64,000 nucleotides of DNA from a virus. Of the stretch, positions 9,608-54,442 are shown in pieces (within the stretch, counting starts at the first letter, position 1; each line of letters begins with the position of its first letter). Below the pieces are notes generated by a model. It had not been told where the DNA came from and searched no databases. It saw nothing but the letters and a program-made list of their open reading frames with translations. The position numbers were made by a program, and so were the translations under genes. The stretch spans positions 44,752 to 108,751 of the IMG/VR virus record IMGVR_UViG_3300032053_000002. One strand, given 5' to 3'.

Positions 9608-9644
9608 CTTAATTTATTCGCCCTTTCCGAATTCTATAAACATA

Positions 9645-10118
9645 TTATTTCTTTAATATTTTAGTCGCCAGTTCTACCAGCTTTTCATTAAACCCATCCA
9701 ACATATTCGTATGTAAAACATTATCAGGAAAAAACGGCCAAATATCGTCAACATCGTCGTCTAATATCAGAAATGATTTCACGTTTTCCTTATTGTTTTC
9801 CAACCATTGTGATATTTCTTTCCCGCGAATATCTTCCCGAGTCTTTGGAGTGAGCCCAATAACTTCCCAATTAACATTCTTTTTTTCAAATAGTTGTTGA
9901 AAATAGTCAATCGTCTTCCCGTATCGCCAACTTGAAGATATTACGATTTTGGAATCAGTCAAAGAGATAAGTTTATTTAACGCGATAATACAATCATCGT
10001 CCAGAGATTGTAAATCCCTTTCATCACTGGATAACTTTTTATCCCGTAAATTTTCAATGCTCTTTCTAGTAACGAGAACCCCGTCTAGATCAAGAAAAAT
10101 AATGTTAAACTTTTCCAT
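9645..10118 (-). CDS. HAD-superfamily phosphatase of the RNA-repair type
   Basis: A 157-residue HAD protein: motif I FLDLDGVL (D10, D12), motif II VISSSWR (about 60-65) and motif IV-like LILDDDVDD (about 118-125). The compact form with SSSWR resembles the HAD domain found in multidomain RNA-repair proteins, where it removes end phosphates; that role is inference. The window also has RNA ligase and kinase genes. First gene after the promoter at 10124-10152. Confidence 0.8.
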   Translation of the reverse strand: MEKFNIIFLDLDGVLVTRKSIENLRDKKLSSDERDLQSLDDDCIIALNKLISLTDSKIVISSSWRYGKTIDYFQQLFEKKNVNWEVIGLTPKTREDIRGKEISQWLENNKENVKSFLILDDDVDDIWPFFPDNVLHTNMLDGFNEKLVELATKILKK

Positions 10119-10179: not shown

Positions 10180-12168
10180 TCACGAGCGACGACTCTTATT
10201 TTTTAACCACTGAAATACCCTGTCCACGTTGATTGATTTTTCAAAAATTTCTTCTTTATGCCCGATTACAGAATAAACATATTCGTCAATTGTATTTTCG
10301 CCCAAAAGATAATAGATATTTACAGGATTTTGTTGACCTATCCTATGCAACCTATCTTCCGCTTGTGACAATAACGCCGGTGTCCACGGTAATTCAACAA
10401 ACGCAATCTTATCGCAAATTCTCTGTAATCCATCGATACCTATTCCGGCCGATTGCAGCGAACCGATGAAAATCTTTATATCTTTTTCAGCTATGAATCG
10501 GTTTATAGTGTCGCTAACTTCATTCGCCATCCCGCCATACAACATCACCGAACAATTTCTGTATTTATTAAAAAGATTTTCTATTATGTCGCGATGATGA
10601 GCGAAAATAACCAACTTATCAACTTGCTCCAAAGTATCGTCAACCCATTCGAATATCGCGTCCATTTTGTACGTCGCCGTGGCCTGTCGTAAGTATTCTA
10701 TTTTAACCATTTTTTCTGCGTATTCACTGCGAGTTGTTAGTTTTTCTTCAATCAACTCTTCTACTTCAATTTCAGATAGATTTTGTTTCTTTAACTTTTC
10801 TTCATACCAGTTTATAGAGTCATCTTCTACTTCTTTATATTTTTTGTAATCAGATAAAGGCAAATAAACTACCTGTTTTATCTTGTCTGGTAATTCCTTT
10901 AACACGTCTTTTTTCATTCGCCGAATCATACAGGATTTTCTTAGTTCGGTCTGCAACTCTTCTTCATTCGCGGAAGTGTATATCGTTCCGAAACCATTAA
11001 ATTGCGGCGGTGCATATCTGCGAATAAATCGTCTTTTCCCACCGAAGTGAGAATCCAAAACACCCAACAATTCCAACTGCGGCGCCAATTCTATTGTTCT
11101 ATTCAGGATAGGCGTTCCCGTTGTTAAAATGCGATATGAAACATTTTCAAAATATTTTAATATTGCTATTGTGCGCTGGGAGTTAGATGTTTTCAAATAA
11201 TGCGACTCATCTGCTATCAAACACTTCGGTTTTCTTATCATAAGTCTGTCGCCAACTTTGGAAATCATATTGTAACTAACCACGTAAATATCAGAGTTCG
11301 GAAAAACGCTGCTGTTGTCTATCTTTGATGCCGTCCGATGTGGAATCCAACTTTCTATTTCTCTCAACCAATTTCTCACAATCATGGCCGGAACAACAAT
11401 TACTGCGGGGTATAATTGGTGATATTCAATAATCGCCAATGCTTGAATTGTTTTTCCGAGACCCATTTCATCCGCGATTAAAATTCCGTTCCGATGTTTA
11501 GAATATTCGACGGCGACTTTCTGAAACGGATATAATCTCTCAAACATTCCTTTGAATTCATCTGATTCGTTTATAGATTCCATAGTTGACAGTATAAATA
11601 ATTTTTTTTGTTGACCTACCTCTATTTTAGCTTTATTTATCGCCTTCTCCATTTTCTTTTCGTCTATGTTATAACCGATCTCTTTAATTAGCGGATTGTT
11701 CAGCAGTTCTTCGAAAATGTTTTCATCACGTATTACAGTAAACCATAGCGGATCAGAATTCTGGCGATATTCGAATTGTAAGTCCAAATCTTCTTTGAAA
11801 AATTTAATTAACGGCTCGAACTTGTTTCGCGGAAGCCATGGTAAACGAATCTCTAATACGTTGTTATCGCCCATAATTTTTATTTCTATCGCCTGAAAAA
11901 CCGGTCGACTTTCGCCTCCGCTTTTTTCTTTTTGGTATTCTTCCAACGAATAATATTTTATTCCCAGACTTCTGAAATAATCATTGTACTTTATCAAAGA
12001 ATCGTTTAGTAATTTTATTATTTCGTAATCCTTTATTTTTCCGCGAAGTAAATGACTAAACAACATCAAATCCGGAGGAGAAATACCTGTTATTTTTCCT
12101 TTAGCGGCATAATCCAGGAGCAACTTTACGAATTTTACGATGTAGTGATTCTCAAAATTATTTGCCAA
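10180..12168 (-). CDS. SNF2-family DNA helicase/translocase
   Basis: A 662-residue protein with an N-terminal region of unknown fold (about 1-210) and a full SNF2 ATPase: Walker A DEMGLGKT (233-240), motif II DESH (near 317), motif III TTGTPILNR, and C-terminal motifs V/VI (SAGIGIDGLQ, QAEDRLHRIGQ). The layout resembles SMARCAL1-like annealing helicases. Translation most likely starts at TTG 12168, with GGAG about 9 nt upstream, overlapping the Nudix stop by 11 nt. Confidence 0.93.
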   Translation of the reverse strand: MANNFENHYIVKFVKLLLDYAAKGKITGISPPDLMLFSHLLRGKIKDYEIIKLLNDSLIKYNDYFRSLGIKYYSLEEYQKEKSGGESRPVFQAIEIKIMGDNNVLEIRLPWLPRNKFEPLIKFFKEDLDLQFEYRQNSDPLWFTVIRDENIFEELLNNPLIKEIGYNIDEKKMEKAINKAKIEVGQQKKLFILSTMESINESDEFKGMFERLYPFQKVAVEYSKHRNGILIADEMGLGKTIQALAIIEYHQLYPAVIVVPAMIVRNWLREIESWIPHRTASKIDNSSVFPNSDIYVVSYNMISKVGDRLMIRKPKCLIADESHYLKTSNSQRTIAILKYFENVSYRILTTGTPILNRTIELAPQLELLGVLDSHFGGKRRFIRRYAPPQFNGFGTIYTSANEEELQTELRKSCMIRRMKKDVLKELPDKIKQVVYLPLSDYKKYKEVEDDSINWYEEKLKKQNLSEIEVEELIEEKLTTRSEYAEKMVKIEYLRQATATYKMDAIFEWVDDTLEQVDKLVIFAHHRDIIENLFNKYRNCSVMLYGGMANEVSDTINRFIAEKDIKIFIGSLQSAGIGIDGLQRICDKIAFVELPWTPALLSQAEDRLHRIGQQNPVNIYYLLGENTIDEYVYSVIGHKEEIFEKSINVDRVFQWLKNKSRRS

Positions 12169-12589
12169 ATGCTTGCTCCAGTATAGGAAGATGCCTATAA
12201 AACATTTTTTTCTCGGCTTCTTCTTTGCTCAAAAACCCCGCCCAATCAACCTCTTCTTTTTGCAACAAATCACTCACAACAACCGGATATACAAATTCCG
12301 CGATTCGCGGATTAGTTATTTCAACTATGAAACAGAAAACTTTTTTATACACCTTTCCTTTTTTATCGGTATATTCTATAATAATTGGAACATCGGACTT
12401 TATCATACCCCTTGAAAATCGCACACCGATTTCTTCTTCCGTTTCGCGAATAGCGGCATCTATCACATCTTCACCGTTCTCTATTTCGCCTTTAGGAATC
12501 GAGTACGTCCCATTCCAGGATGCATTAGTCGGGTGGCATAACAAAATCTTATTATCGTAAATTATCGCGAGCCCGGCAGATTTTTTCAT
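12158..12589 (-). CDS. Nudix hydrolase
   Basis: A 143-residue protein with a clear Nudix box at residues 34-55 (GEIENGEDVIDAAIRETEEEIG; the metal-binding REtEEEIG part is intact). Members hydrolyse nucleoside diphosphates linked to other groups; the substrate is not predictable here. Its ATG overlaps the Thg1-like stop. Confidence 0.92.
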   Translation of the reverse strand: MKKSAGLAIIYDNKILLCHPTNASWNGTYSIPKGEIENGEDVIDAAIRETEEEIGVRFSRGMIKSDVPIIIEYTDKKGKVYKKVFCFIVEITNPRIAEFVYPVVVSDLLQKEEVDWAGFLSKEEAEKKMFYRHLPILEQAFGK

Positions 12590-13356
12590 TCCACTAACTC
12601 TCCGTCTTTTTTATAGATTATATTTTTTAGATAGTCGCGATTGTCGGCGAAAAACGGAACGTCATTATCAAGTACCCACTTTGACCTGAGAACTTTTTGC
12701 CCATCTTCGGTAACAATCTCATACATATATTTTTTTACGGTGAATCCCCACTTCTGAGCACTGGGTAATTCTTCCCACTTTTCACCTTTACCTTTTAATT
12801 CACACATTTCTCTTAACTCGTCAGAATTTTTATTCAGTAATACTTTTTGACTAAACATAGAATGCGCAAGAGATTGGATAGAATTTCTCTTTGCGTCAAA
12901 TTGTCGCCAGATGAAAATGTTTTCCACTTCGTTTAGCGGAACATTAAATACCCGACAATCAAAGTATGCCAGTGAGTTGGGAAGCGCAATCACACTGTTG
13001 AAATTGGCAGTAAAAATAGATGCGATTACAGAAGAAACCTTTTGAATATTTCCGCCAAACCACACCTGAGACTTTTCTCCACCCCAGACTCCACCACCCA
13101 TTAAAAATGTCGCTTCATCTGATTGACTATATGCCATAGCGACAGACCCAATTTCTTTACAAGTTTCAACCGCCGCGATTCCCATTGCAGTAGACAACGC
13201 CCAATCAAACGGCCGTTTGAACTCATTTTTTCCAACCCAGGTATGAAACGCTTTACCATCCACTCGAACAAAAATCGGAAGGTTCACGTCTAAATAGATT
13301 CTACTTTTTTCTTCGTACGCTTTTAGACGGTTTCCCATCTCGTCTTTTTTCTTCAT
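12586..13356 (-). CDS. Thg1-like 3'-5' RNA polymerase (tRNA 5'-end repair)
   Basis: A 256-residue member of the tRNA-His guanylyltransferase family: RVDGKAFHTW (31-40, metal-binding Asp33) and AYSQSDEATFL (75-85, Asp80), plus RNSIQSLAH. Bacterial and phage Thg1-like proteins repair truncated tRNA 5' ends by templated 3'-5' synthesis. The phage tRNA-His (33317) already encodes its G-1, so repair is more likely than G-1 addition (inference). ATG 13356 has AGAGGAA at good spacing. Confidence 0.92.
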   Translation of the reverse strand: MKKKDEMGNRLKAYEEKSRIYLDVNLPIFVRVDGKAFHTWVGKNEFKRPFDWALSTAMGIAAVETCKEIGSVAMAYSQSDEATFLMGGGVWGGEKSQVWFGGNIQKVSSVIASIFTANFNSVIALPNSLAYFDCRVFNVPLNEVENIFIWRQFDAKRNSIQSLAHSMFSQKVLLNKNSDELREMCELKGKGEKWEELPSAQKWGFTVKKYMYEIVTEDGQKVLRSKWVLDNDVPFFADNRDYLKNIIYKKDGELVE

Positions 13357-33389: not shown

Positions 33390-33399
33390 ATATAAATAA

Positions 33400-33461
33400 A
33401 ACGAACAAGTAATCGAACAGGATGTATTTTCAAATGATAACCCTATTTCGTTCGGCTCGTT
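33400..33461 (-). ncRNA. Short Y-RNA-like RNA
   Basis: 62 nt: end helix AACGAGC/GTTCGTT (7 bp), then CCGA, inner helix AATAGG/CCTGTT, GGGTTATC in the loop, and GATTACTTG on the 3' strand. Same signature as 21401-21459. Between tRNA-His and tRNA-Pro. Confidence 0.75.
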
Positions 33462-33465
33462 CTAT

Positions 33466-33546
33466 TGGTCGGGATGGTCGGATTTGAACCGACGAAATCT
33501 CCTGCTCCCAAAGCAGGCGCGATAAACCAGGCTACGCTACATCCCG
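33466..33546 (-). tRNA. tRNA-Pro (anticodon TGG), CCA encoded
   Basis: Acceptor CGGGATG/CATCCCG, anticodon arm CCTGC-TTTGGGA-GCAGG, T-arm GTCGG-TTCAAAT-CCGAC, A73 followed by CCA. Confidence 0.95.
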
Positions 33547-33550
33547 TTTT

Positions 33551-33799
33551 TTATAACTCGTAACTTTTTTCAATCTTGTATAACTTTTTATCTACACCGG
33601 CTAACCTATATGAAGAATACAATAAAATTCCTGGAAAGTGTTTTTTGAAAACCGTAAGTAAATTGTTATAATCTCCAGTTTTCATTTCTTCTCGTATTTT
33701 TGTCGCCAGTTCTTTTGAAGTCAACTTACCGACCATTCCAAGAATATAGAACGCGTTTCCTTTCGGCCCGCCAATATCTAAACGTAACGTTTTTTGCAT
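33551..33799 (-). CDS. Conserved small phage protein
   Basis: 82 residues beginning RLDIGGPKGNAFYILGMVGKL, a pattern I have seen in phage hypotheticals. GAGGG precedes ATG 33799. Function unknown. Confidence 0.7.
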   Translation of the reverse strand: MQKTLRLDIGGPKGNAFYILGMVGKLTSKELATKIREEMKTGDYNNLLTVFKKHFPGILLYSSYRLAGVDKKLYKIEKSYEL

Positions 33800-33835
33800 T
33801 TCACATCCCTCTTTCCAACTTTAAAATTTCGTTTG

Positions 33836-33907
33836 TCCGCGTGGATGGAATCGAACCATCAACCCCCTGCTTATAAGACAGATGCGCTACCATTGCGCCA
33901 CACGCGG
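33836..33907 (-). tRNA. tRNA-Ile (anticodon TAT)
   Basis: Acceptor CCGCGTG/CACGCGG, anticodon arm TCTGT-CTTATAA-GCAGG, T-arm GATGG-TTCGATT-CCATC, A73. Reads AUA, common in AT-rich phages. Confidence 0.93.
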
Positions 33908-33919
33908 TATAAAAAACTA

Positions 33920-34028
33920 TGCCGACGACGGGAGTGGAATTCCCGCTTACGTGTTCGCCTCGTCCCTGATTGGGACGATAACCCTGACAATTCGCGTAAG
34001 CCTCAAATCTCCACTGTCAGGACCGGCA
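33920..34028 (-). ncRNA. Pseudoknotted structured RNA
   Basis: 109 nt closed by TGCCG/CGGCA. GCTTACG/CGTAAGC (7 bp) and GTGGA/TCCAC nest, while CCTGACA/TGTCAGG (7 bp) crosses them, giving a pseudoknot; GTCCC/GGGAC forms a hairpin. Matches no RNA family I know. Sits between tRNA-Ile and a small gene. Confidence 0.65.
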
Positions 34029-34052
34029 TGTGTCGTTAAATATAAATATACT

Positions 34053-34259
34053 TTAAAAAACCTTTTTAAGTTCCTCAACATCAATGGCTCTGCACGTCAG
34101 AATTCCATTATACAACTTCTCAATCTCTTTTGTTCGTTCTTCGGATAAACACGTCGTGCCATCACATTTCTCATCGTTCATTACATCAATCAGAGCGTTT
34201 TCCAATCTATCGATGTACTCGATGTAAAGTTTTACCTCTTCTTCTTTGGTGATTTTCAT
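34053..34259 (-). CDS. Small helical protein
   Basis: 68 residues from ATG 34259 (AAGGAAAG upstream); acidic helices with two Cys (EKCDG, ILTCR). Preceded by a class A promoter. Confidence 0.6.
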   Translation of the reverse strand: MKITKEEEVKLYIEYIDRLENALIDVMNDEKCDGTTCLSEERTKEIEKLYNGILTCRAIDVEELKKVF

Positions 34260-34286
34260 TTTACTTTCCTTCTTTTGTCTATAATC

Positions 34287-34315
34287 AATATACAAAACAA
34301 AAGCATAACAGTCAA
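34287..34315 (-). promoter_or_regulatory. Sigma70-like promoter (class A)
   Basis: TTGACT (34310-34315), 17-nt spacer, TATATT (34287-34292). Confidence 0.8.
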
Positions 34316-34328
34316 GTATTATTTTTTG

Positions 34329-34399
34329 CAGCGTCTAATGGAATCGAACCAATGCCACCGAGTTCAAAGCCCGGCGTTCTACCGTTAAACTAAGACGCT
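34329..34399 (-). tRNA. tRNA-Gln (anticodon TTG)
   Basis: Acceptor AGCGTCT/AGACGCT, anticodon arm CCGGG-CTTTGAA-CTCGG, T-arm ATTGG-TTCGATT-CCATT, G73. Confidence 0.95.
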
Positions 34400-34435
34400 A
34401 TTTCTTTTTTTTCATTACGGCGAATCCACTATTTT

Positions 34436-34603
34436 TTATTCTTTTTCTTTAATGGAAAAATATCGCACATTATACATCGGAACAACCGTGATTTCTTTTC
34501 CGTTATAAAATTCAACACGATTACCGGAATCAAAGAATGCGAAATCGTCGACATCAAAAGTGAAAGGCGTACTGTTCTCAAAAACTATTGAAACACGATA
34601 CAT
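34436..34603 (-). CDS. Small protein
   Basis: 55 residues (MYRVSIVFENSTPFTFDVDD...) with AAAGGAGAA upstream; strand-rich, probably a small beta fold. Unknown family. Confidence 0.6.
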   Translation of the reverse strand: MYRVSIVFENSTPFTFDVDDFAFFDSGNRVEFYNGKEITVVPMYNVRYFSIKEKE

Positions 34604-34606
34604 TTT

Positions 34607-34762
34607 TTATTCTCCTTTTTCTAATTTTATTTTTTCTTTTCTGCGAGTCCATCGTTTCCAGTATCTTTTCCAGAAACCAGGAATTTTTTCTGTATAAAAT
34701 CGTCCATCCCCGTTATAATCCCATTTTATATGTTTTCGCCGAACTAATTTTTGTTTTCCCAT
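34607..34762 (-). CDS. Small basic protein
   Basis: 51 residues, very Lys/Arg/Trp-rich (FWKRYWKRWTRRKEK). It begins just after tRNA-Val with no clear ribosome site, ends 3 nt before the next ATG. Nucleic-acid binding plausible. Confidence 0.5.
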   Translation of the reverse strand: MGKQKLVRRKHIKWDYNGDGRFYTEKIPGFWKRYWKRWTRRKEKIKLEKGE

Positions 34763-34764
34763 AG

Positions 34765-34842
34765 TAGCGCCAGAGGGATTTGAACCCCCGAAAATGTCAG
34801 GGTGTAGACCTGATGCCTTAGACCGAACTTGGCGATGGCGCT
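34765..34842 (-). tRNA. tRNA-Val (anticodon TAC), C33
   Basis: Acceptor AGCGCCA/TGGCGCT, anticodon arm TCAGG-TCTACAC-CCTGA, A73. As in the other valine tRNA (25439), position 33 is C instead of U. Confidence 0.87.
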
Positions 34843-34849
34843 ATTTCAG

Positions 34850-34922
34850 TGGCGACAATTGGAGTTGAACCAACATCTGAACGCTTATGAAACGTCCGCT
34901 CTACCAGTTAAGCTATGTCGCC
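34850..34922 (-). tRNA. tRNA-Met/Ile2 (anticodon CAT)
   Basis: Acceptor GGCGACA/TGTCGCC, anticodon arm GACGT-TTCATAA-GCGTT, T-arm GTTGG-TTCAACT-CCAAT, A73. Confidence 0.93.
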
Positions 34923-34927
34923 ATTAT

Positions 34928-35083
34928 TTATCCTTTTTTTAATATTTTTAAATTTCTTTTCTCCCAACAATCTTTGCACAGCCATTTCCACTTCTCGTCT
35001 ATCATTCGCCAAAATATTCTGGCGACAAGAAATCCTTTTACACCGCACTCATCACATTTATTTTTATAGTCACTGTTACTCAT
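34928..35083 (-). CDS. Small zinc-finger protein
   Basis: 51 residues with CDECG and CKDCW pairs. The ATG (35083) begins at the A of the CCA end of tRNA-Lys, so gene and tRNA abut with no room for a ribosome site. Confidence 0.55.
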   Translation of the reverse strand: MSNSDYKNKCDECGVKGFLVARIFWRMIDEKWKWLCKDCWEKRNLKILKKG

Positions 35084-35158
35084 GGTGGAAGTGAAGGGAA
35101 TCGAACCCCCAACCTTTTGCTTAAGAGGCAATTGCGCTACCAATTGCGCCACACTTCC
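35083..35158 (-). tRNA. tRNA-Lys (anticodon CTT), CCA encoded
   Basis: Acceptor GGAAGTG/CACTTCC, anticodon loop CTCTTAA on stem ATTGC/GCAAA (first pair mismatched), T-loop TTCGATT, A73-CCA. Confidence 0.93.
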
Positions 35159-35167
35159 GTTTTTTAG

Positions 35168-35244
35168 TGGGCAAGATGAGATTTGAACTCACATTTTCAA
35201 CCGTTACCTGAATCCCGCGTATCAGACGGGTGGGATACTTGCCC
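35168..35244 (-). tRNA. tRNA-Ile (anticodon GAT), D-arm missing
   Basis: Acceptor GGGCAAG/CTTGCCC, anticodon arm CCCGT-CTGATAC-GCGGG, T-arm GTGAG-TTCAAAT-CTCAT, A73. Only TATCCCA lies before the anticodon stem and 21 nt after it, the same layout as the three arginine tRNAs. Confidence 0.85.
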
Positions 35245-35250
35245 GTATTT

Positions 35251-35562
35251 TTAATTGTCCATCACAACTTTTTTACTTTTTATTATAACTACCCATTCAG
35301 TGCGTCCAGTTCCGGCAATATTAGGAGTGGTTTTGGATTCATTATTAATACGTTCTCCCAATTTATGAGAATTGTAAAAGTTTTCGCTAACTTCAATCGT
35401 TAATTCGATGTCGTCACTAACAAAACTGAGTTCACAGTTGTGTTCAACTACAATTTTTAGTACAACAATATAATGAATCTTGATATTACGTTCTCCTGAA
35501 AATACATTAACGCACAACAAAAATATCGTTGCGGCTATTAAAAATATAAAACCGGCTTTCAT
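35251..35562 (-). CDS. Exported protein, paralogue of lipoprotein 26993
   Basis: 103 residues with a signal-like hydrophobic N-terminus (FIFLIAATIFLLCVNVFSG) and the domain IHYIVVLKI...TIEVSENFYNSHKLGERINNES shared with 26993-27454. It lacks the coiled coil; a lipobox-like Cys is less clear. Confidence 0.7.
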   Translation of the reverse strand: MKAGFIFLIAATIFLLCVNVFSGERNIKIHYIVVLKIVVEHNCELSFVSDDIELTIEVSENFYNSHKLGERINNESKTTPNIAGTGRTEWVVIIKSKKVVMDN

Positions 35563-35612
35563 TTTTTATATCCCCTTGTTTTTATTTACTTAATTTGTTC
35601 GCCCCTGGTAGC

Positions 35613-35639
35613 TGGATGTATTCTATTAGAATTCACCCA
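35613..35639 (-). other. Long hairpin
   Basis: An 11-of-12-bp stem (TGGGTGAATTCT, AAT loop) in the gap upstream of the exported-protein gene. It may be a processing or attenuation site; no T-run. Confidence 0.4.
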
Positions 35640-35653
35640 CATCTCTAACATTG

Positions 35654-35730
35654 TGGGAGCGACAGGAATCGAACCTGCGTTTGTACGGATTAAAAGTCCG
35701 TTGCGAAAGCCAACAATTTGCTACGCTCCC
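35654..35730 (-). tRNA. tRNA-Lys (anticodon TTT)
   Basis: Acceptor GGGAGCG/CGCTCCC, anticodon arm ACGGA-CTTTTAA-TCCGT, T-arm GCAGG-TTCGATT-CCTGT, A73; D-loop slightly enlarged. Confidence 0.95.
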
Positions 35731-35739
35731 GTTTTTTTA

Positions 35740-35937
35740 TTACTGTGGGAAAATTATCATCCCTCCCCCAATAATTTCATTTTCATCCTGACATTTACAT
35801 TCAACTCTAAACCATCCCCACTTATTACGCGCCATCCAATATCGACCTTTTTTATCTTTATACAGATTAACTGGTTTATTCTCTACCAAATCCATAAACA
35901 TAAATTTAATTTTTGTCATTGGCCTGCTACCTAACAT
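35740..35937 (-). CDS. Small protein
   Basis: 65 residues (GRYWMARNKWGWFRVECKC...) with AAGGAGAT before ATG 35937. Trp-rich beta-type sequence; unknown. Confidence 0.6.
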   Translation of the reverse strand: MLGSRPMTKIKFMFMDLVENKPVNLYKDKKGRYWMARNKWGWFRVECKCQDENEIIGGGMIIFPQ

Positions 35938-35956
35938 AATATCTCCTTTTCATTTT

Positions 35957-36064
35957 TTACAGATGTCTCAAAAAATCTGGATCGTCTTTGTTGTCCCAAT
36001 AAACCCAAGCCATTCCCACGGCGACAACCAATACAATAATAATCGCAATTACATCAAATAACAT
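35957..36064 (-). CDS. Tiny membrane protein
   Basis: 35 residues: one hydrophobic helix (IAIIIVLVVAVGMAWVYW) plus a charged tail; GGGAGAAA precedes ATG 36064. Confidence 0.6.
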   Translation of the reverse strand: MLFDVIAIIIVLVVAVGMAWVYWDNKDDPDFLRHL

Positions 36065-36087
36065 AAATTTCTCCCATATGTGTTTAG

Positions 36088-36170
36088 TGGAAGCAGTAAG
36101 ATTCGAACTTACTCACTCGTAGAGAACGGATTTACAGTCCGCCACGACTCACCATCTTCGCCGTGCTTCC
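36088..36170 (-). tRNA. tRNA-Tyr (anticodon GTA)
   Basis: Acceptor GGAAGCA/TGCTTCC, anticodon arm GCGGA-CTGTAAA-TCCGT, long class II variable arm, T-arm GTAAG-TTCGAAT-CTTAC, A73. Confidence 0.95.
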
Positions 36171-36176
36171 AATTAT

Positions 36177-36341
36177 TTATTCGCCATAATCTTCTGACTT
36201 GATTTTATATCCGCGACAAGCGCGTCTTTCTCTTTCTTTTCTTTTACTGTTTATCTTGCGAACTCTGAAACGACCATCAAAGAACCGATCTCTTTTTTCC
36301 AGTTCGTGAAGAATTCTTTTGTTTAATTCCGCGATTTTCAT
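36177..36341 (-). CDS. Small basic protein
   Basis: 54 residues (MKIAELNKRILHELEKRDRFF...) rich in Lys/Arg/Glu; abuts the next gene. Unknown. Confidence 0.55.
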   Translation of the reverse strand: MKIAELNKRILHELEKRDRFFDGRFRVRKINSKRKERERRACRGYKIKSEDYGE

Positions 36342-36343
36342 CT

Positions 36344-36559
36344 TTATTGTTCCCACTTCAGTTGCGTTCCTTTATAAACTTTAGCATCTTTTGGCACACA
36401 CTTCGTGCACCAAATCATTTTACGTTCTTCATCGGTACAATTAAACCCTCTATCTGGGCGAAACTCAAACGAAACCTCGCCGATTTTAATTCTTTTACCG
36501 CATTTAATACAGTTTGGTTTGTCTTCTTTAAACTCGATAATATACTTTGTAACTTTCAT
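36344..36559 (-). CDS. Zinc-finger protein
   Basis: 71 residues with CIKCGKR and CTKC pairs 35 residues apart; AAAGGAA before ATG 36559. Preceded by a class A promoter. Confidence 0.7.
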   Translation of the reverse strand: MKVTKYIIEFKEDKPNCIKCGKRIKIGEVSFEFRPDRGFNCTDEERKMIWCTKCVPKDAKVYKGTQLKWEQ

Positions 36560-36590
36560 AACGTTCCTTTCACTTTTTTATCAGTATACT

Positions 36591-36619
36591 AATATACGTC
36601 AAGAAAACGAATTTGTCAA
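36591..36619 (-). promoter_or_regulatory. Sigma70-like promoter (class A)
   Basis: TTGACA (36614-36619), 17-nt spacer, TATATT (36591-36596). Confidence 0.8.
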
Positions 36620-36630
36620 CCGATTTTTTG

Positions 36631-36702
<72 letters not shown>

Positions 36703-36705
36703 GTG

Positions 36706-36778
36706 CGGAACCGACGGGATTCGAACCCGCATCGGCCAGATCGACAGTCTGGTGCCCTACCAATTAGACCACAGCTCC
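36706..36778 (-). tRNA. tRNA-Asp (anticodon GTC)
   Basis: Acceptor GGAGCTG/CGGTTCC, anticodon arm CCAGA-CTGTCGA-TCTGG, T-loop TTCGAAT, G73. Confidence 0.95.
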
Positions 36779-36781
36779 AAT

Positions 36782-36852
36782 AAGGGATGTTTACGTTTTC
36801 TACTCGCCGCTCACCTTGTCATGACTTAGGTACGTTTAGGCAGCCATCCCTT
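36782..36852 (-). ncRNA. Structured RNA between two tRNA-Asp genes
   Basis: 71 nt closed by AAGGGATG/CATCCCTT (8 bp) with an inner ACCT/AGGT hairpin around TCATGA. Not tRNA-like. Confidence 0.5.
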
Positions 36853-36930
36853 TGGCGGTGACGACGGGATTCGAACCCGCAACCCTCTGCGTGACAGGCA
36901 GGCGTTCTGACCGGTTGGAACTACATCACC
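36853..36930 (-). tRNA. tRNA-Asp (anticodon GTC), second gene, CCA encoded
   Basis: Acceptor GGTGATG/CGTCACC, anticodon loop CTGTCAC, T-arm GCGGG-TTCGAAT-CCCGT, G73-CCA. Clearly different in sequence from the other tRNA-Asp. Confidence 0.93.
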
Positions 36931-36953
36931 ATTTCGTTGATGTCAACGATTTG

Positions 36954-37028
36954 CTTCTTCAATGAGGCTCGAACTCACATTTTCTGCTCTTCTGAGAGCA
37001 GATGTCCTTCCTACTAGACGATGAAGAA
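36954..37028 (-). tRNA. tRNA with 8-nt anticodon loop, Gln-like ends
   Basis: Acceptor TTCTTCA/TGAAGAA with T1-A72 and G73 as in tRNA-Gln, D-arm GTCT/GGAC, T-arm GTGAG-TTCGAGC-CTCAT. The anticodon arm is CTGCT-CTCAGAAG-AGCAG, an 8-nt loop (or an 8-bp hairpin with CAGA loop), so the anticodon is ambiguous. It could be a frameshift-type suppressor or a decaying gene. Confidence 0.65.
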
Positions 37029-37112
37029 AACGAAAAAACAAAATCGTCGACTATTTTATTCTTTCGCCGTGGATAAAACCGATTTGATCAAACCGGCATT
37101 GCCCCACATTTG

Positions 37113-37198
37113 CAGATGCGGCAGGACTTGAACCCGCACAAAGCATTTTCTGTCTTCGGTTTTGGAGACCGACGTTTTACCAGTTAAACTACGCATCT
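37113..37198 (-). tRNA. tRNA-Trp (anticodon CCA), long variable region
   Basis: Acceptor AGATGCG/CGCATCT, anticodon arm TCGGT-CTCCAAA-ACCGA, T-arm GCGGG-TTCAAGT-CCTGC, G73. The variable region is about 18 nt, unusual for tryptophan. The 84 nt before it contain a CCGGTTT/AAATCGG hairpin. Confidence 0.92.
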
Positions 37199-37205
37199 AT
37201 TTTTG

Positions 37206-37333
37206 TTGGACAGGCAGGATTCGAACCCACACCCACCCGCTTATCATGCGATAACATTTTCTCTGGCGACCCGTTATCGGATAATTTTTGAAAAAACGTG
37301 TTTTAGGTGCTCTTCCAGTTGAGCTACTGTCCA
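37206..37333 (-). tRNA. tRNA with about 55-nt insertion
   Basis: Acceptor TGGACAG/CTGTCCA, D-arm GCTC-AACTGGAA-GAGC and T-loop TTCGAAT are normal, but 79 nt instead of about 23 lie between D- and T-arms. The insert holds CGATAAC/GTTATCG. It may be an intron or an extreme variable arm; the anticodon cannot be assigned. Confidence 0.6.
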
Positions 37334-37339
37334 ATTTTG

Positions 37340-37411
37340 TGCTCCCGTAGGGACTTGAACCCTAAACTCGCGGCTTAAAAGGCCGGTGCGATACCATTTC
37401 GCCACGGAAGC
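37340..37411 (-). tRNA. tRNA-Lys (anticodon TTT), second gene
   Basis: Acceptor GCTTCCG/CGGGAGC, anticodon loop CTTTTAA on CCGGC/GCCGC (first pair mismatched), T-arm TAGGG-TTCAAGT-CCCTA, A73. Confidence 0.93.
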
Positions 37412-37423
37412 ATATTATTTTAG

Positions 37424-37495
37424 TGGAGACGACCGGAATCGAACCGGCCCAGTCTGCTTGCAAGGCAGTCTCGCCCCCTTGGCACATGCGTCCCC
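37424..37495 (-). tRNA. tRNA-Ala (anticodon TGC)
   Basis: Acceptor GGGGACG/CGTCTCC with G3-T70, anticodon loop CTTGCAA, T-arm GCCGG-TTCGATT-CCGGT, A73. Confidence 0.94.
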
Positions 37496-37499
37496 AAAT

Positions 37500-37640
37500 T
37501 TATTCTTCCTTATCGTCACACAAAAATATCGGAAGTTTTTCAGCAATTTCTTTTTCAGTTGGTTCTCGTTTAAGTTTTTTTCTTAAATCTTCCGTAACCA
37601 TTTCAACCAACTTATTCATTTTTTCGCCAGATAGTTTCAT
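37500..37640 (-). CDS. Small helical protein
   Basis: 46 residues (MKLSGEKMNKLVEMVTEDL...) with GGGAGA before ATG 37640, lying between tRNA-fMet and tRNA-Ala. Unknown. Confidence 0.6.
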   Translation of the reverse strand: MKLSGEKMNKLVEMVTEDLRKKLKREPTEKEIAEKLPIFLCDDKEE

Positions 37641-37664
37641 AAAATCTCCCTTTTATATTTTCAG

Positions 37665-37738
37665 TAGCAGGGGCCGGATTCGAACCGGCGAATGACGTGG
37701 CTTATGAAACCACCGAGATACCGCTTCTCTACCCTGCG
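37665..37738 (-). tRNA. Initiator tRNA-fMet (anticodon CAT)
   Basis: Acceptor CGCAGGG/CCCTGCT leaves the 1-72 pair mismatched (C-T), the hallmark of initiators. Anticodon arm GTGGT-TTCATAA-GCCAC lacks the usual three G-C pairs. A73. Confidence 0.88.
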
Positions 37739-37741
37739 ATG

Positions 37742-37812
37742 AGCGCTATATCGGAATTGAACCGACGTCTCTTGGTTGGAAGCCAAGTATAATACCTTTA
37801 TACCAATAGCGC
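37742..37812 (-). tRNA. tRNA-Gly (anticodon TCC)
   Basis: Acceptor GCGCTAT/ATAGCGC, anticodon arm CTTGG-CTTCCAA-CCAAG, T-arm GTCGG-TTCAATT-CCGAT, T73. Confidence 0.95.
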
Positions 37813-37814
37813 AT

Positions 37815-37843
37815 TTACATTATTACGATTTTTACATAGTCAA
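37815..37843 (-). promoter_or_regulatory. Possible promoter inside the tRNA array
   Basis: TTGACT (37838-37843) with a weak -10 (ATGTAA at 17 nt, TAATAA slightly closer), upstream of tRNA-Gly. Confidence 0.45.
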
Positions 37844-37863
37844 CTATATAAAAATCTTTTTTG

Positions 37864-37936
37864 TGGACTCCCTGGGGGTCGAACCCAGCTCTTCGGATTT
37901 TCAGTCCGCCGCAGCTACCGAGTTTGCTTGAAGTCC
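37864..37936 (-). tRNA. tRNA-Phe (anticodon GAA)
   Basis: Acceptor GGACTTC/GGAGTCC, anticodon loop CTGAAAA, T-loop TTCGACC, A73. Confidence 0.93.
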
Positions 37937-38001
37937 ATTCATTATAAAATCAATGTTTCAAATCGTTCTAATTTCTTTCCTTTCTTTTTACAGATTATTT
38001 G

Positions 38002-38073
38002 AGCTCCCGTCCGGCCTTGAACCGAAGTCTGATGATTACGAATCAACTGTTTTGCCAACTAAACTACGGAAGC
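38002..38073 (-). tRNA. tRNA-Thr (anticodon CGT)
   Basis: Acceptor GCTTCCG/CGGGAGC, anticodon loop TTCGTAA (stem has one T-T mismatch), T-arm TTCGG-TTCAAGG-CCGGA, T73. Confidence 0.92.
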
Positions 38074-38085
38074 ATTTCTTTTTTG

Positions 38086-38158
38086 CTCCAGCGGTGAGAC
38101 TCGAACTCACAACCTCGTGCTTAACAGGCACTTGCTCCGCCAATTGAGCTACGCTGGA
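38086..38158 (-). tRNA. tRNA-Asn (anticodon GTT)
   Basis: Acceptor TCCAGCG/CGCTGGA, anticodon loop CTGTTAA, T-arm GTGAG-TTCGAGT-CTCAC, G73. Confidence 0.95.
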
Positions 38159-38162
38159 ATTA

Positions 38163-38238
38163 TGGAGTCGGTGGAGGGACTCGAACCCCCGAATAGTGGG
38201 TTTGCAGCCCACCGCGATAGCCACTACGCCACACCGAC
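38163..38238 (-). tRNA. tRNA-Cys (anticodon GCA), CCA encoded
   Basis: Acceptor GTCGGTG/CACCGAC, anticodon arm GTGGG-CTGCAAA-CCCAC, T-loop TTCGAGT, T73-CCA. Confidence 0.95.
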
Positions 38239-38248
38239 ATTTTCTTTG

Positions 38249-38328
38249 CGCCCACGACAGGACTCGAACCCGCATTTCCAACTCCACTTACGGATAGTGC
38301 GTTCGAAGCGCACCTCGGTTACGTGGGC
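38249..38328 (-). tRNA. tRNA-Arg (anticodon TCG), D-arm missing
   Basis: Acceptor GCCCACG/CGTGGGC, anticodon arm GTGCG-CTTCGAA-CGCAC, T-arm GCGGG-TTCGAGT-CCTGT, G73. Same layout as 8064 and 32672; here A10 pairs with T where the others have G10-C (covariation). Confidence 0.87.
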
Positions 38329-38335
38329 AAATTTG

Positions 38336-38408
38336 TAGAGCCAGGGGGAATCGAACCCGTCCATTTCTGGGTTGAAGGCCCAGTTGCCTACCGTTAGCAG
38401 ATGGCTCC
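38336..38408 (-). tRNA. tRNA-Glu (anticodon TTC), C33 and weak T-stem
   Basis: Acceptor GGAGCCA/TGGCTCT, anticodon arm CTGGG-CCTTCAA-CCCAG (C at position 33), A73. The T-stem has only three good pairs. Confidence 0.85.
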
Positions 38409-38417
38409 ATTATGAAA

Positions 38418-38488
38418 TAAAAACAACCCCGTAGCCTCACACTTCCTACTTCCAAGAGCCACGCTCCCTACACACCAAAGTTGTTTTC
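38418..38488 (-). ncRNA. Structured leader RNA of tRNA segment
   Basis: Just downstream of the promoter at 38511-38539. AAAACAAC/GTTGTTTT (8 bp) closes about 55 nt of purine-rich sequence (GGAAGTAGGAAGTGTGAGG), followed by T-rich sequence. It could be a leader processed off the tRNAs or an attenuator. Confidence 0.5.
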
Positions 38489-38510
38489 CTTATGTCAAAG
38501 AACTCCCTAT

Positions 38511-38539
38511 AATATACAAAAGTAATCTCTACTTGTCAA
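38511..38539 (-). promoter_or_regulatory. Sigma70-like promoter (class A) within the tRNA array
   Basis: TTGACA (38534-38539), 17-nt spacer, TATATT (38511-38516). Upstream of tRNA-Glu and the array that follows. Confidence 0.85.
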
Positions 38540-38577
38540 CTGTTTTTTTCATCTTGACATCACAATTTGTGATTTCG

Positions 38578-38650
38578 AGCTGGAGAACGGGATTGAACCG
38601 TCGGCTTCCTGCTTACCAAGCAGGTACTCTACCATCTGAGTTACTCCAGC
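38578..38650 (-). tRNA. tRNA-Thr (anticodon GGT)
   Basis: Acceptor GCTGGAG/CTCCAGC, anticodon arm CCTGC-TTGGTAA-GCAGG, T-arm GACGG-TTCAATC-CCGTT, T73. Confidence 0.95.
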
Positions 38651-38658
38651 AAATTCAG

Positions 38659-38730
38659 TCTGGGCGACTGGGTTCGAACCAGCGCGTTCCCGGTTCCAAG
38701 CCGGGGTTCTTCCATCTGAACTACGCCCAG
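38659..38730 (-). tRNA. tRNA-Pro (anticodon TGG), second gene
   Basis: Acceptor CTGGGCG/CGCCCAG, anticodon arm CCCGG-CTTGGAA-CCGGG, T-arm GCTGG-TTCGAAC-CCAGT, A73. Confidence 0.95.
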
Positions 38731-38735
38731 TTATA

Positions 38736-38819
38736 AATGAGCAAATGTTTGACAACGACTTTTATTCGGTTGTAGCCGAATTCTCTTTTGTAGGGATAAC
38801 CGTTATCGTTCGGCTCATT
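38736..38819 (-). ncRNA. Y-RNA-like RNA with extra hairpin
   Basis: 84 nt: end helix AATGAGC/GCTCATT (7 bp), CCGA, inner helix GATAAC/GTTGTC, then GGTTATC and an ATTCGG/CCGAAT hairpin; the 3' strand has CATTTG in place of ACTTG. CCGA-N8-GGTTATC is conserved with the other copies. Confidence 0.72.
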
Positions 38820-38821
38820 TG

Positions 38822-38903
38822 AGCTGGTGGAGGGATTCGAACCCCCGTGGGAAAGTCCTGCGGTTTACAAAACCGCTGCAATCGGCCTCTATGCGACACC
38901 AGC
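38822..38903 (-). tRNA. tRNA-Thr (anticodon TGT), long variable arm
   Basis: Acceptor GCTGGTG/CACCAGC, anticodon arm GCGGT-TTTGTAA-ACCGC, variable region about 14 nt (unusual for threonine), T-loop TTCGAAT, T73. Confidence 0.92.
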
Positions 38904-50940: not shown

Positions 50941-51360
50941 CTATTTAAAAATTTCTTTATGAATACAAACTACATTATTTTCGTTTGTTTTTTCATCATA
51001 TTGACTAACATATACGCTATATGATTGATATTCTATTCTTATACTCATAACCGCGTCGCGAATCATATGACTCTTAATTATTTTAGTAAACCAATCCACC
51101 AATTCCTGTTCATTATCATAATCTCTTAGGTCGCCCCAGAAATTTACAGTATACGCTGCAAGATGATGATCTTCCGGATTTTCCCATATATTTACTTGAA
51201 TAGACCCTTCGCTACCACATGGAACATTGCATTCTTTCCACTCTATTTCGTCATCAGTAAAACCACAAGTCTTAAATTTTGAATTCAAATCCGTATAATC
51301 ACTCATTACTTTCAAATGATCAATTCTTATTGAACCATTAACATGCGTCCATTGACTCAT
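50941..51360 (-). CDS. Conserved phage/bacterial protein (MSQWTHVNGSIRID type)
   Basis: 139 residues beginning MSQWTHVNGSIRID, with CNVPCGSEGSIQVNIWENPE and FWGDLRDYDNEQELVDWF: a recognisable phage family of unknown function. Ends TAG. Confidence 0.78.
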   Translation of the reverse strand: MSQWTHVNGSIRIDHLKVMSDYTDLNSKFKTCGFTDDEIEWKECNVPCGSEGSIQVNIWENPEDHHLAAYTVNFWGDLRDYDNEQELVDWFTKIIKSHMIRDAVMSIRIEYQSYSVYVSQYDEKTNENNVVCIHKEIFK

Positions 51361-52364
51361 ATTATTACCACCTTATTAAATTCGTTGTATAAAGACCGTT
51401 TACCCTTTTCAAACAATTTGTATTTTTTGCGAACAACTCCATCAGGAACATTGGAACGGTCTATACCTTTTTCAATGTCGTCTTTGATACGTCTAATAGC
51501 AACTTCAGGGTCTACTTCAAACACAACCGCTATTTTTCTGCAATCATTAAAATCAGACATAAATTCTATTCTTAACCACTTATCAACACTGGTCGCGTCT
51601 AAATAGGTTTTTCCGTATTTTAGCAAATCAACTTTCATTCGCACTTTAGTCTCTTCCCAAACGTCATCGTTTGCGGCTTGATTGGAAATATTGCCAGTAA
51701 ACTCACGGCGAATTTCATCCGGGCAAACAATATATTTTTTATCTATGTTTTTCAAATAACGAGATTTTCCAGATCCTGGAATACCAACCATAACATAAAC
51801 TTTTTTACTGGAATGTCGTTGTTTAAAATGAACAAACATTTCTTTAATTTTATTTTTCTTCAAATCGAAATTGGTAGCAAAAGTCGCCCACGCCGCTCTA
51901 GATTGTCCTTTATCCATCTGAACAAATCGTCTTAAATCTTCATCTTGAATTTTATCATAATCAGAAACATTTTTTATAGAGTGATTCATATGTTCTGCAA
52001 TTACTTTTACGGTAACATCATAATACTTAATATAATCTTTGTATTCTTCAATAAATTCTACAGACTTTTTCGCGTGACCGTACGAATAAATCTTTTTTTC
52101 GCCAACGGTGGTTTTCCACGCTTTTCCGACATCATGTAAAAAAGCCGCTTCGATTAGGTTATCGTACCCAAACATTTTAGTTACGTAAACCATATTAAAG
52201 GTATGCAACAGTGCATCAAACTCAGGATGATAATAGGTGGATTGCGGAATACCATCCAACGCATTCACAACTTTGGAAGTTATGAAGTATTGGCGCATTT
52301 CGTATTTCCACGCATCAAAATCAGAGTAATTTGCGTTGTATAGTATGTCGTAAAAAGTTTTCAT
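51357..52364 (-). CDS. HD-domain / polynucleotide kinase fusion
   Basis: 335 residues. N-terminal HD hydrolase (LLHTFNM, FLHDVGKAW about 75-83, AEHMNHS). C-terminal P-loop kinase: VMVGIPGSGKSRYL (Walker A 194-201), CPDEIRREFTG, LDATSV, like RNA/DNA 5' kinases. With the RNA ligase one gene away from it (HD-GYP between), it may reseal broken tRNA; the HD part could remove 2',3' phosphates (inference). Confidence 0.85.
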   Translation of the reverse strand: MKTFYDILYNANYSDFDAWKYEMRQYFITSKVVNALDGIPQSTYYHPEFDALLHTFNMVYVTKMFGYDNLIEAAFLHDVGKAWKTTVGEKKIYSYGHAKKSVEFIEEYKDYIKYYDVTVKVIAEHMNHSIKNVSDYDKIQDEDLRRFVQMDKGQSRAAWATFATNFDLKKNKIKEMFVHFKQRHSSKKVYVMVGIPGSGKSRYLKNIDKKYIVCPDEIRREFTGNISNQAANDDVWEETKVRMKVDLLKYGKTYLDATSVDKWLRIEFMSDFNDCRKIAVVFEVDPEVAIRRIKDDIEKGIDRSNVPDGVVRKKYKLFEKGKRSLYNEFNKVVII

Positions 52365-53266: not shown

Positions 53267-54442
53267 CTATTTTTTCATCAATAAAAACTTAACCTTTTTA
53301 GAACCCATCTCACCAAGAACCGACTTCGGGTCTAATTCAAAGTTATCTACCATTCTAAAAATTATTCCGGTTAAAGATTTATTAACATTTTCTAAAACCG
53401 CGAATGCTAACTCTTTACGAGACATGGTTTTGGACATTCCTCGGTAAATCTCTCCTTCTTTCAATAAATAGTCAACCAAATTAGAATATTTTTCCTTTAA
53501 TGATTTATATTCTTCGCGGACTTTGTCAGGAAGTTTATTTAAGTATACCTCAAATTCTTTCATTTCATTATTCATTAAAACATTTATTAAATTATTAGTT
53601 ATTCCTTCGCCAGTTGCGACATGATGTAACTGAATGTATTTCGGAGATTTAATTTTAACTCTTCCGATAACTTCATCTTCTTCAAACTGAGATACAACAA
53701 ATCCTTCAAAGTCGTTCCCGTTCAGATTTTCTTTATCTGCAATATTAGACAATTCCATTATATCATTTACGTCTTTTAAATCGAAAAGTTTAGGAAATCT
53801 AATAGGCAAGCCATTAAAAACACTTTCCATCTTTTTTCGAATAGATTTATAGAATATGTTGAAATCTTTAGAAGTTTCATTTTCTTTTAATCCAATAAAT
53901 ACCAATTCTTTTTTAGAATAATCAACAACTATTCGAGCCGACGAGTGAACCAACTCAAACATATAAGTTTTGTCTTGCTCAAATTGAGAAGTTAAGATAT
54001 TAAAATCTTCTCTGGAAATAATATCAAAAAATAACTCTTCAAATGGAATTTTATCAGTAGTAGTCGCGTCTTTAGCATCAATAGTTCCATTGGTTGCAAT
54101 TCGCCATTTTTCATCATAAAAATAAACTTTAATAATTGAACCATCCACTTTTTCTATAATATAGGATTTTTCTAAATCTATGTTAAATGCATGAGATTCT
54201 CCGTAATTCCAGAATTTGAAAAATGGATTACATACTATTTTCCAGGTACCATTTTCTAAAATTATTCCGCGAGATTCGCGAACGATTGAATTGGAAAAAT
54301 CAGAATTAAATTGATTATATTTAAATAAAACAAGATTGTTTTTTGCAGAAATAATAAGATTAAAGGGGTCTTTTTTTAAGTCCTCTATGGCTCTATTTTC
54401 CAAGAATTTTTGTAGAGATAACATTGTAATATTTTCTTTCAT
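53267..54442 (-). CDS. T4 Rnl1-like RNA ligase
   Basis: 391 residues. Nucleotidyltransferase motif I KVDGS with the AMP-accepting Lys at 98 (T4 Rnl1 uses K99), upstream RESRGIILE, motif IV DFEGFVV, motif V RVKIKSPKY. The C-terminal extension has Rnl1-like size. T4 Rnl1 repairs tRNA cut by host anticodon nuclease. Preceded by promoter 54449-54477. Confidence 0.92.
   Translation of the reverse strand: MKENITMLSLQKFLENRAIEDLKKDPFNLIISAKNNLVLFKYNQFNSDFSNSIVRESRGIILENGTWKIVCNPFFKFWNYGESHAFNIDLEKSYIIEKVDGSIIKVYFYDEKWRIATNGTIDAKDATTTDKIPFEELFFDIISREDFNILTSQFEQDKTYMFELVHSSARIVVDYSKKELVFIGLKENETSKDFNIFYKSIRKKMESVFNGLPIRFPKLFDLKDVNDIMELSNIADKENLNGNDFEGFVVSQFEEDEVIGRVKIKSPKYIQLHHVATGEGITNNLINVLMNNEMKEFEVYLNKLPDKVREEYKSLKEKYSNLVDYLLKEGEIYRGMSKTMSRKELAFAVLENVNKSLTGIIFRMVDNFELDPKSVLGEMGSKKVKFLLMKK

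Follow-up and report, generated by a model that had tools for sequence, protein, structure and literature searches.

Within a 64,000-nucleotide (nt) stretch of viral DNA (the window; bases 44752-108751 of the 292,723-base virus record IMGVR_UViG_3300032053_000002) lie three short elements that, judged by sequence and predicted pairing, are very probably Y RNAs of the phage's own Ro60. They share a common anatomy: the ends pair, with one bulged C followed by GA; an inner helix and a loop that opens with UUAUC come next; and the 3' strand carries ACUUG or a variant of it. This Y-like identity, originally predicted from the window's letters, is corroborated by an independent covariance model (R1), by compensatory changes among relatives, by the location of such RNAs beside Ro60 and on its strand elsewhere, and by the presence of a Ro60 gene here. 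The elements, with their R1 scores, and the gene are as follows.

21400-21460, minus strand: putative short Y RNA of 61 nt, 7 nt after a tRNA-Met and ~1.1 kb upstream of Ro60 (46.2 bits, E = 3.3e-8)
33399-33462, minus strand: putative short Y RNA of 64 nt with GAUUACUUG on its 3' strand (43.8 bits, E = 1.2e-7; model built without this sequence)
38735-38820, minus strand: putative short Y RNA of 86 nt with an extra hairpin within the loop (39.0 bits, E = 1.4e-6)
18580-20268, minus strand: Ro60 gene encoding 562 amino acids, with TROVE (PF05731, 4e-36) and Ro60 vWA (vWA_Ro60; PF25045, 4e-59) domains

In the R1 alignments, the end helix of each element has 8 pairs and the bulged C, with GA opposite ACUUG or AUUUG, in agreement with the helix of approximately seven pairs, lone bulged C and opposite-strand bulge that mark a Ro60-bound Y RNA. 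The end helices differ in sequence yet pair each time, as had been proposed. The proposed order of CCGA followed by (G)GGTTATC is likewise present at the three named places: CCGA-N6..12-GGTTATC occurs three times in the window, always on the minus strand at these sites, against a mean of 0.14 in shuffled sequences, which never contained three, and the whole record holds just these three. The spacer, put at 8-9 nt, is 8 nt in all three when the middle element is read as GGGTTATC. A further word, GATTACTTG, does stand on the 3' strand of two of the three elements as claimed, but taken alone its frequency is no rarer than chance. The original prediction placed the sites correctly and their ends 1-2 bases off the model limits; its title range, 33400-38819, omits the element it claimed at 21401, and the fourth of its sequences went unnamed. 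Compared with shuffled sequences, the folds have z-scores of -3.4 (21400-21460), -1.6 (33399-33462) and -2.9 (38735-38820).

R1 was derived from Ro60 loci gathered elsewhere. Of 399 viral contigs found, 80 were used, as were 80 of 123 cellular contigs; ten annotated records of phages or plasmids and a single additional viral contig completed the set. The viral-side loci total 91, one being a plasmid; one Bosea locus was fetched via a plasmid search for Ro60. Both strands were scanned for CGA-N6..9-GGTTA followed by a downstream strand able to pair with the bases preceding the bulged C. On the viral loci, 81/193 true cores passed, in clear contrast to seven permuted cores (10/124 to 22/104), whereas on the cellular loci the control is weak (55/96 true cores versus 3/22 to 17/33 for seven decoys). 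From these finds, 37 short RNAs without a tRNA-like domain were aligned, comprising 34 of 61 scanner finds and three more; the window's three elements and all coding or tRNA-containing finds were left out. The search of this genome and relatives that the original prediction called for, run here with a model of outside sequences, recovers all three elements at E-values between 3e-8 and 1e-6, with an unchanged ranking when unfiltered. In the whole 292.7-kb record, they are the sole matches at E <= 10.

Lack of covariation in relatives had been named as grounds for rejecting the assignment, and the opposite is found. In the unfitted alignment of the 37 sequences, both-sided changes occur in 14/17 pairs, and 99.3% of end-helix cells are paired, a property for which the scanner had selected. 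When 104 sequences are aligned to R1, compensatory changes are seen in 17/17 pairs, and a shift of the partners by one, two or three columns brings the score down from 0.646 to at most 0.246; this alignment is fitted to R1 and includes its 37 members, and so leans to the model. The pair beside the bulged C is CG in 77 sequences, UA in 23, GC in 2 and AU in 1. The helices are therefore kept by compensatory change, while the bases between them are nearly invariant: the bulged C is kept in 103/104 sequences, the following G in 104/104, the three bases of UUA in 104, 104 and 103, respectively, and the final C of UUAUC in 101.

The relatives of these elements are tied to Ro60 in position. Every R1 match at E <= 0.1 lies on the Ro60 strand, both in the 91 viral-side loci (106/106) and in the 80 cellular loci (62/62), and 60/91 viral-side loci have such a match. 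The strand bias is partly by construction, because many of these loci supplied R1, yet the scanner had covered both strands. In 12 whole cellular genomes (~75 Mb), R1 gives 21 matches at E <= 0.01 in 11 genomes, and 21/21 fall within the ~10-kb Ro60 locus. Four large phages used as negative controls give 0 matches, versus 2 in each of three Ro60 phages; the Ro60 list lacks the genera of three of the four, and the absence of Ro60 is unconfirmed for the Vibrio one. Among 121 genomes of one phylum, TROVE is present in 4 and an R1 match in 2, with both in one genome, numbers too small for a statement on co-occurrence.

The Ro60 at 18580-20268 is the one TROVE gene in the full record, so the short RNAs and a Ro60 are encoded in the same genome; all three elements are on the strand of this gene. 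The phage protein aligns with the structure of frog Ro60 (1YVP) at E = 2e-108, and counting along this alignment places K170, R174 and H187 of 1YVP at K179, R183 and H196, with all three residues kept. Of these, H187 is described as essential for Y RNA contact in the part of PMC4030889 consulted. The window also encodes a Thg1-like protein (12586-13356, minus strand), a T4-type RNA ligase (53267-54442, minus strand) and an HD/AAA protein (51357-52364, minus strand), a possible tRNA-repair set that would fit a tRNA-repair setting.

Several Y RNAs per Ro60 are common. Among 50 Ro60 records hand-chosen from the 91 viral-side loci (14 were removed from a first list of 64, some with and some without R1 matches), at least one short Y RNA at E <= 0.01 is present in 44/50, at least two in 32/50 and at least three in 9/50, and one record carries seven. 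The expectation that one Ro60 with at least four Y-like RNAs would be unusual is thus at odds with the 32 records that have two or more short ones. The figure of at least four did hold for this phage, where the three short elements are joined by a tRNA-like one. This was identified by a second model, R2, whose 16 training sequences are tRNA-containing Y RNAs from other loci (13 of 15 finds and three more); because R2 also partly matches plain tRNAs, only full-length matches with a Ro stem were counted. The further candidates all lie upstream of Ro60.

21241-21389, minus strand: putative tRNA-like (YrlA-type) Y RNA with a Ro stem at both ends, T-loop region at 21333-21345 and D arm at 21288-21305 (R2 43.7 bits, E = 2.6e-8, full length; model built without this sequence)
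21556-21617, minus strand: probable short Y RNA, 13 nt before tRNA-Met (R1 24.6 bits, E = 0.0025 in the window search)
22371-22618, minus strand: possible large Y RNA with paired ends, TTTTTAGGGT-C-GA...GGTTATC and CCTTATCCTAAAAG, and ~200 nt inserted (~250 nt in all); ends conserved and paired in locus L029

The element at 21241-21389 has a T arm and a D arm between its Ro-stem strands, and reaches 22.3 bits with the YrlA family RF02553, below the threshold of 69. The one at 21556-21617 is absent from the whole-record R1 results and its own fold is no better than shuffles (z = -0.3); a resembling element (17.2 bits) lies upstream of Ro60 at 3200-3288 in L029, the relative whose Ro60 is closest (64% identity). 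L029 also conserves the Y-like ends of 22371-22618 around a divergent insert, but R1 scores no higher than 9.8 bits in this stretch (22533-22616, E = 1.7), which is therefore kept as a possible Y RNA. In total, four Y RNAs are well supported in this phage and up to six are possible. Adjoining this cluster is a sub-threshold manA RNA (21681-22018, minus strand; RF01745, 34.3 bits versus 55.2).

Several observations weigh against assigning the three elements to Ro60. The loci that trained R1 were chosen for having Ro60, and matches there are partly by construction. By energy alone 33399-33462 is the weakest element, its fold being weakly better than shuffles, and for two of the three the Ro60 gene is 13-18 kb away. 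None of the three matches the vertebrate Y_RNA family (RF00019), the nematode family RF01656 (whose threshold is 38 bits) or RF02553 at E <= 10. Six of the 50 Ro60 records, among them L029, have no R1 match at E <= 0.01. Conversely, a canonical Y RNA at 9621-9722 (minus strand) of locus L229 is in a genome without a TROVE match at 1e-10 and with no Ro60 in the surrounding 19.5 kb.

If the elements are Y RNAs, what is described for other Ro60 proteins suggests how they might act. Work on Deinococcus and vertebrates places Y RNAs on the outer face of Ro60, where they overlap the site for misfolded RNA; in bacteria, namely Deinococcus, they tether Ro60 to PNPase via the tRNA-like domain (PMC4726728, PMC8394870 and PMC4030889, in the parts consulted). 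By analogy, the phage RNAs are predicted to bind the outer face of Ro60 and to block the surface that overlaps the misfolded-RNA site. Those that are short and without a tRNA-like domain would therefore be expected to act as gates or stabilizers. The element at 21241-21389, the sole one with a domain of the PNPase-tethering kind, could recruit PNPase; a search of the whole record for a PNPase domain found none, and therefore the host enzyme would be used. During infection, the ribonucleoprotein (RNP) may help to repair RNAs, tRNAs included, or to control their quality, a role that we offer as plausible but tentative. Alternatively, the elements could be Y RNAs of an RNP that is chiefly a decoy or sink for tRNA-cutting host nucleases rather than an agent of RNA quality control. 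The RNA-repair-like genes in the window would suit such a sink, but the three short RNAs lack a tRNA-like domain that could serve as bait, and no nuclease is tied to them; we regard this account as unlikely.

Two of the elements are set tightly among tRNA genes. ARAGORN finds 40 tRNA genes in the window, the majority in a minus-strand array at 32-39 kb, and those directly upstream of the two elements are:

33466-33546, minus strand: tRNA-Pro, upstream of 33399-33462 (ARAGORN)
38821-38903, minus strand: tRNA-Thr, upstream of 38735-38820 (ARAGORN)

In transcription order, 33399-33462 begins 3 nt after tRNA-Pro and ends 10 nt before tRNA-His, whereas 38735-38820 abuts tRNA-Thr (0 nt) and ends 4 nt before another tRNA-Pro. 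Because 0-10 nt separate these two RNAs from their neighbors, we infer that they would be transcribed with the tRNA array and released through maturation of the tRNAs on either side (tRNA punctuation). The arrangement is found elsewhere. In Sinorhizobium phage Phosso, two unannotated short Y RNAs lie ~130 kb from the Ro60 gene, each filling a gap between two tRNA genes (tRNA-Gly and tRNA-Asp for one, tRNA-Arg and tRNA-Leu for the other). Such RNAs also adjoin tRNAs in two other large viral records. In tRNA-bearing loci, 15/47 R1 matches lie within 20 nt of a tRNA, versus a mean of 2.1 and a maximum of 6 in 300 random draws; this comparison drew on 79 picked matches, with weaker matches and duplicate contigs left out, and four of the 15 are from this window. 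Six of the 47 are abutted by tRNAs on both sides. As a separate observation, Y RNAs at 11946-12086 of locus L080 and near 4276 of L116 apparently enclose a whole tRNA, with D, anticodon and T arms in normal order, inside the Ro stem.

The same tight packing, here, in Phosso and in the two other records, might instead mean that the elements are structural spacers or processing hairpins of a tRNA operon with no Ro60 binding. We consider this very unlikely, since cellular genomes have this same RNA next to Ro60, the invariant bases of the RNA are those of the Ro60 site, and R1 is silent in the four control phages. It is still less probable that they are degenerate or remodeled tRNAs of a decaying array, a possibility that the original prediction had itself raised. 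Although they stand in the positions of tRNAs, spaced 0-10 nt from their neighbors, none of the three is called as a tRNA by ARAGORN, the tRNA family RF00005 has no match at E <= 10, and no T or D arm is present; moreover, the pattern of the Ro60 site is conserved with compensatory changes across the 104 sequences, and homologs lie beside Ro60 in many tRNA-free loci. Chance resemblance has a negligible probability: although CCGA and GGTTATC are short words and GATTACTTG alone is at chance level, neither the excess of the combined motif over shuffles nor the E-values of the model would be expected from it.

The elements resemble, to varying degrees, each of the known Y RNA systems. Most of the phage RNAs are shorter than vertebrate Y RNAs. 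The Ro60 site of the latter (RF00019) also has a bulged C (PMC4726728, in part), and human Y4, whose likeness the original prediction had pointed out, begins GGCTGGTCCGATGGTAGTGGGTTATC as printed in a portion of PMC5763536, which is indeed CCGA-N8-GGTTATC. The phage elements follow the same plan as nematode stem-bulge RNAs (sbRNAs). According to sections of PMC4450293, the lower stem of the latter contains a bulged cytosine, the upper stem has nine pairs and GC clamps, and the loop opens at its 5' end with UUAUC. When 20 short Y RNAs of phages, selected among the stronger R1 matches in the 50 Ro60 records, are compared with all 4227 Rfam families, RF01656 (ceN72-3_ceN74-2) is the only one at E <= 1; it matches 7/20, one of them at the gathering score (the relative L209, with 38.1 bits). 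The nematode RNAs differ in having putative RNA polymerase III promoters, and CeY is the only sbRNA that was identified when Ro60 (ROP-1) was precipitated, as stated in passages of PMC4726728.

With respect to bacterial Y RNAs, the element at 21241-21389 has the order of Ro stem, T arm and D arm seen in the tRNA-like Y RNAs of other loci, whereas the three short elements (61, 64 and 86 nt) have no tRNA-like domain and do not belong with YrlA. The Salmonella rsr-yrlBA operon, with Y RNAs yrlB and yrlA (PMC7790460, in part), and Deinococcus RYPER likewise provide one Ro60 with more than one Y RNA, but there the Y RNA genes form one operon with rsr, whereas here two Y RNAs are in a distant tRNA array. 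Overall, the three short elements share the Y RNA plan and probably work as Y RNAs do, but the Rfam models do not place them in the animal families. The apparent novelty is a short form that lacks a tRNA-like domain and is held tightly between tRNA genes far from Ro60, in Phosso as well as here, together with the match of some short phage Y RNAs to RF01656. The abstract of a 2014 survey of bacterial and phage Y RNAs reportedly describes likely Y RNAs near Ro60 in more than 250 bacterial and phage species, with at least one per species being tRNA-like, which implies that others are not. Priority of the short phage Y RNAs relative to that survey is uncertain, and we do not claim that they are unreported.

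More tentatively than for the role in infection, we suggest that the short phage Y RNAs are of the same lineage as animal Y RNAs and nematode sbRNAs. The lower stem, the nine-pair upper stem and the UUAUC loop would then predate animals, and UUAUC would serve Ro60 RNPs rather than DNA replication alone; large phages would feed one Ro60 with interchangeable Y RNAs, some excised from tRNA arrays by tRNA punctuation. That phages and bacteria have the plan of the animal RNAs next to Ro60, with UUAUC as part of it, offers a simple system for studying the role of UUAUC and for asking how one Ro60 uses several Y RNAs. Y RNAs placed between tRNA genes, in turn, suggest a way of making them without promoters of their own.

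A number of other candidates were considered. The authors of a report on phage CKA15 suspected Y RNAs near its Rsr homolog (PMC12282133, in part); R1 lends this no support, because its search of Listeria phage P100, used as a stand-in, finds nothing. A scan of viral contigs for CCGA-GGTTATC-GATTACTTG gave 5 matches, none with a convincing end helix, which were taken as chance, and an element at 17626 was rejected since it lies inside a coding frame. The long rod or hairpin at 33919-34030 (minus strand, z = -3.3) contains a Y-like inner part, GCTTACG-C-GA-N8-GGGTTATC, within an outer helix, and was not counted, being without support from R1, R2, ARAGORN or Rfam. Finally, transfer-messenger RNAs (tmRNAs) occur in two of the Ro60 loci: one is beside six scanner-found Y RNAs in Gordonia phage Sixama (L026, 5968-6389), where it is missing from the annotation shown, and another is called at 13262-13591 of L205, in the viral contig G001 that bears the nearest Ro60.

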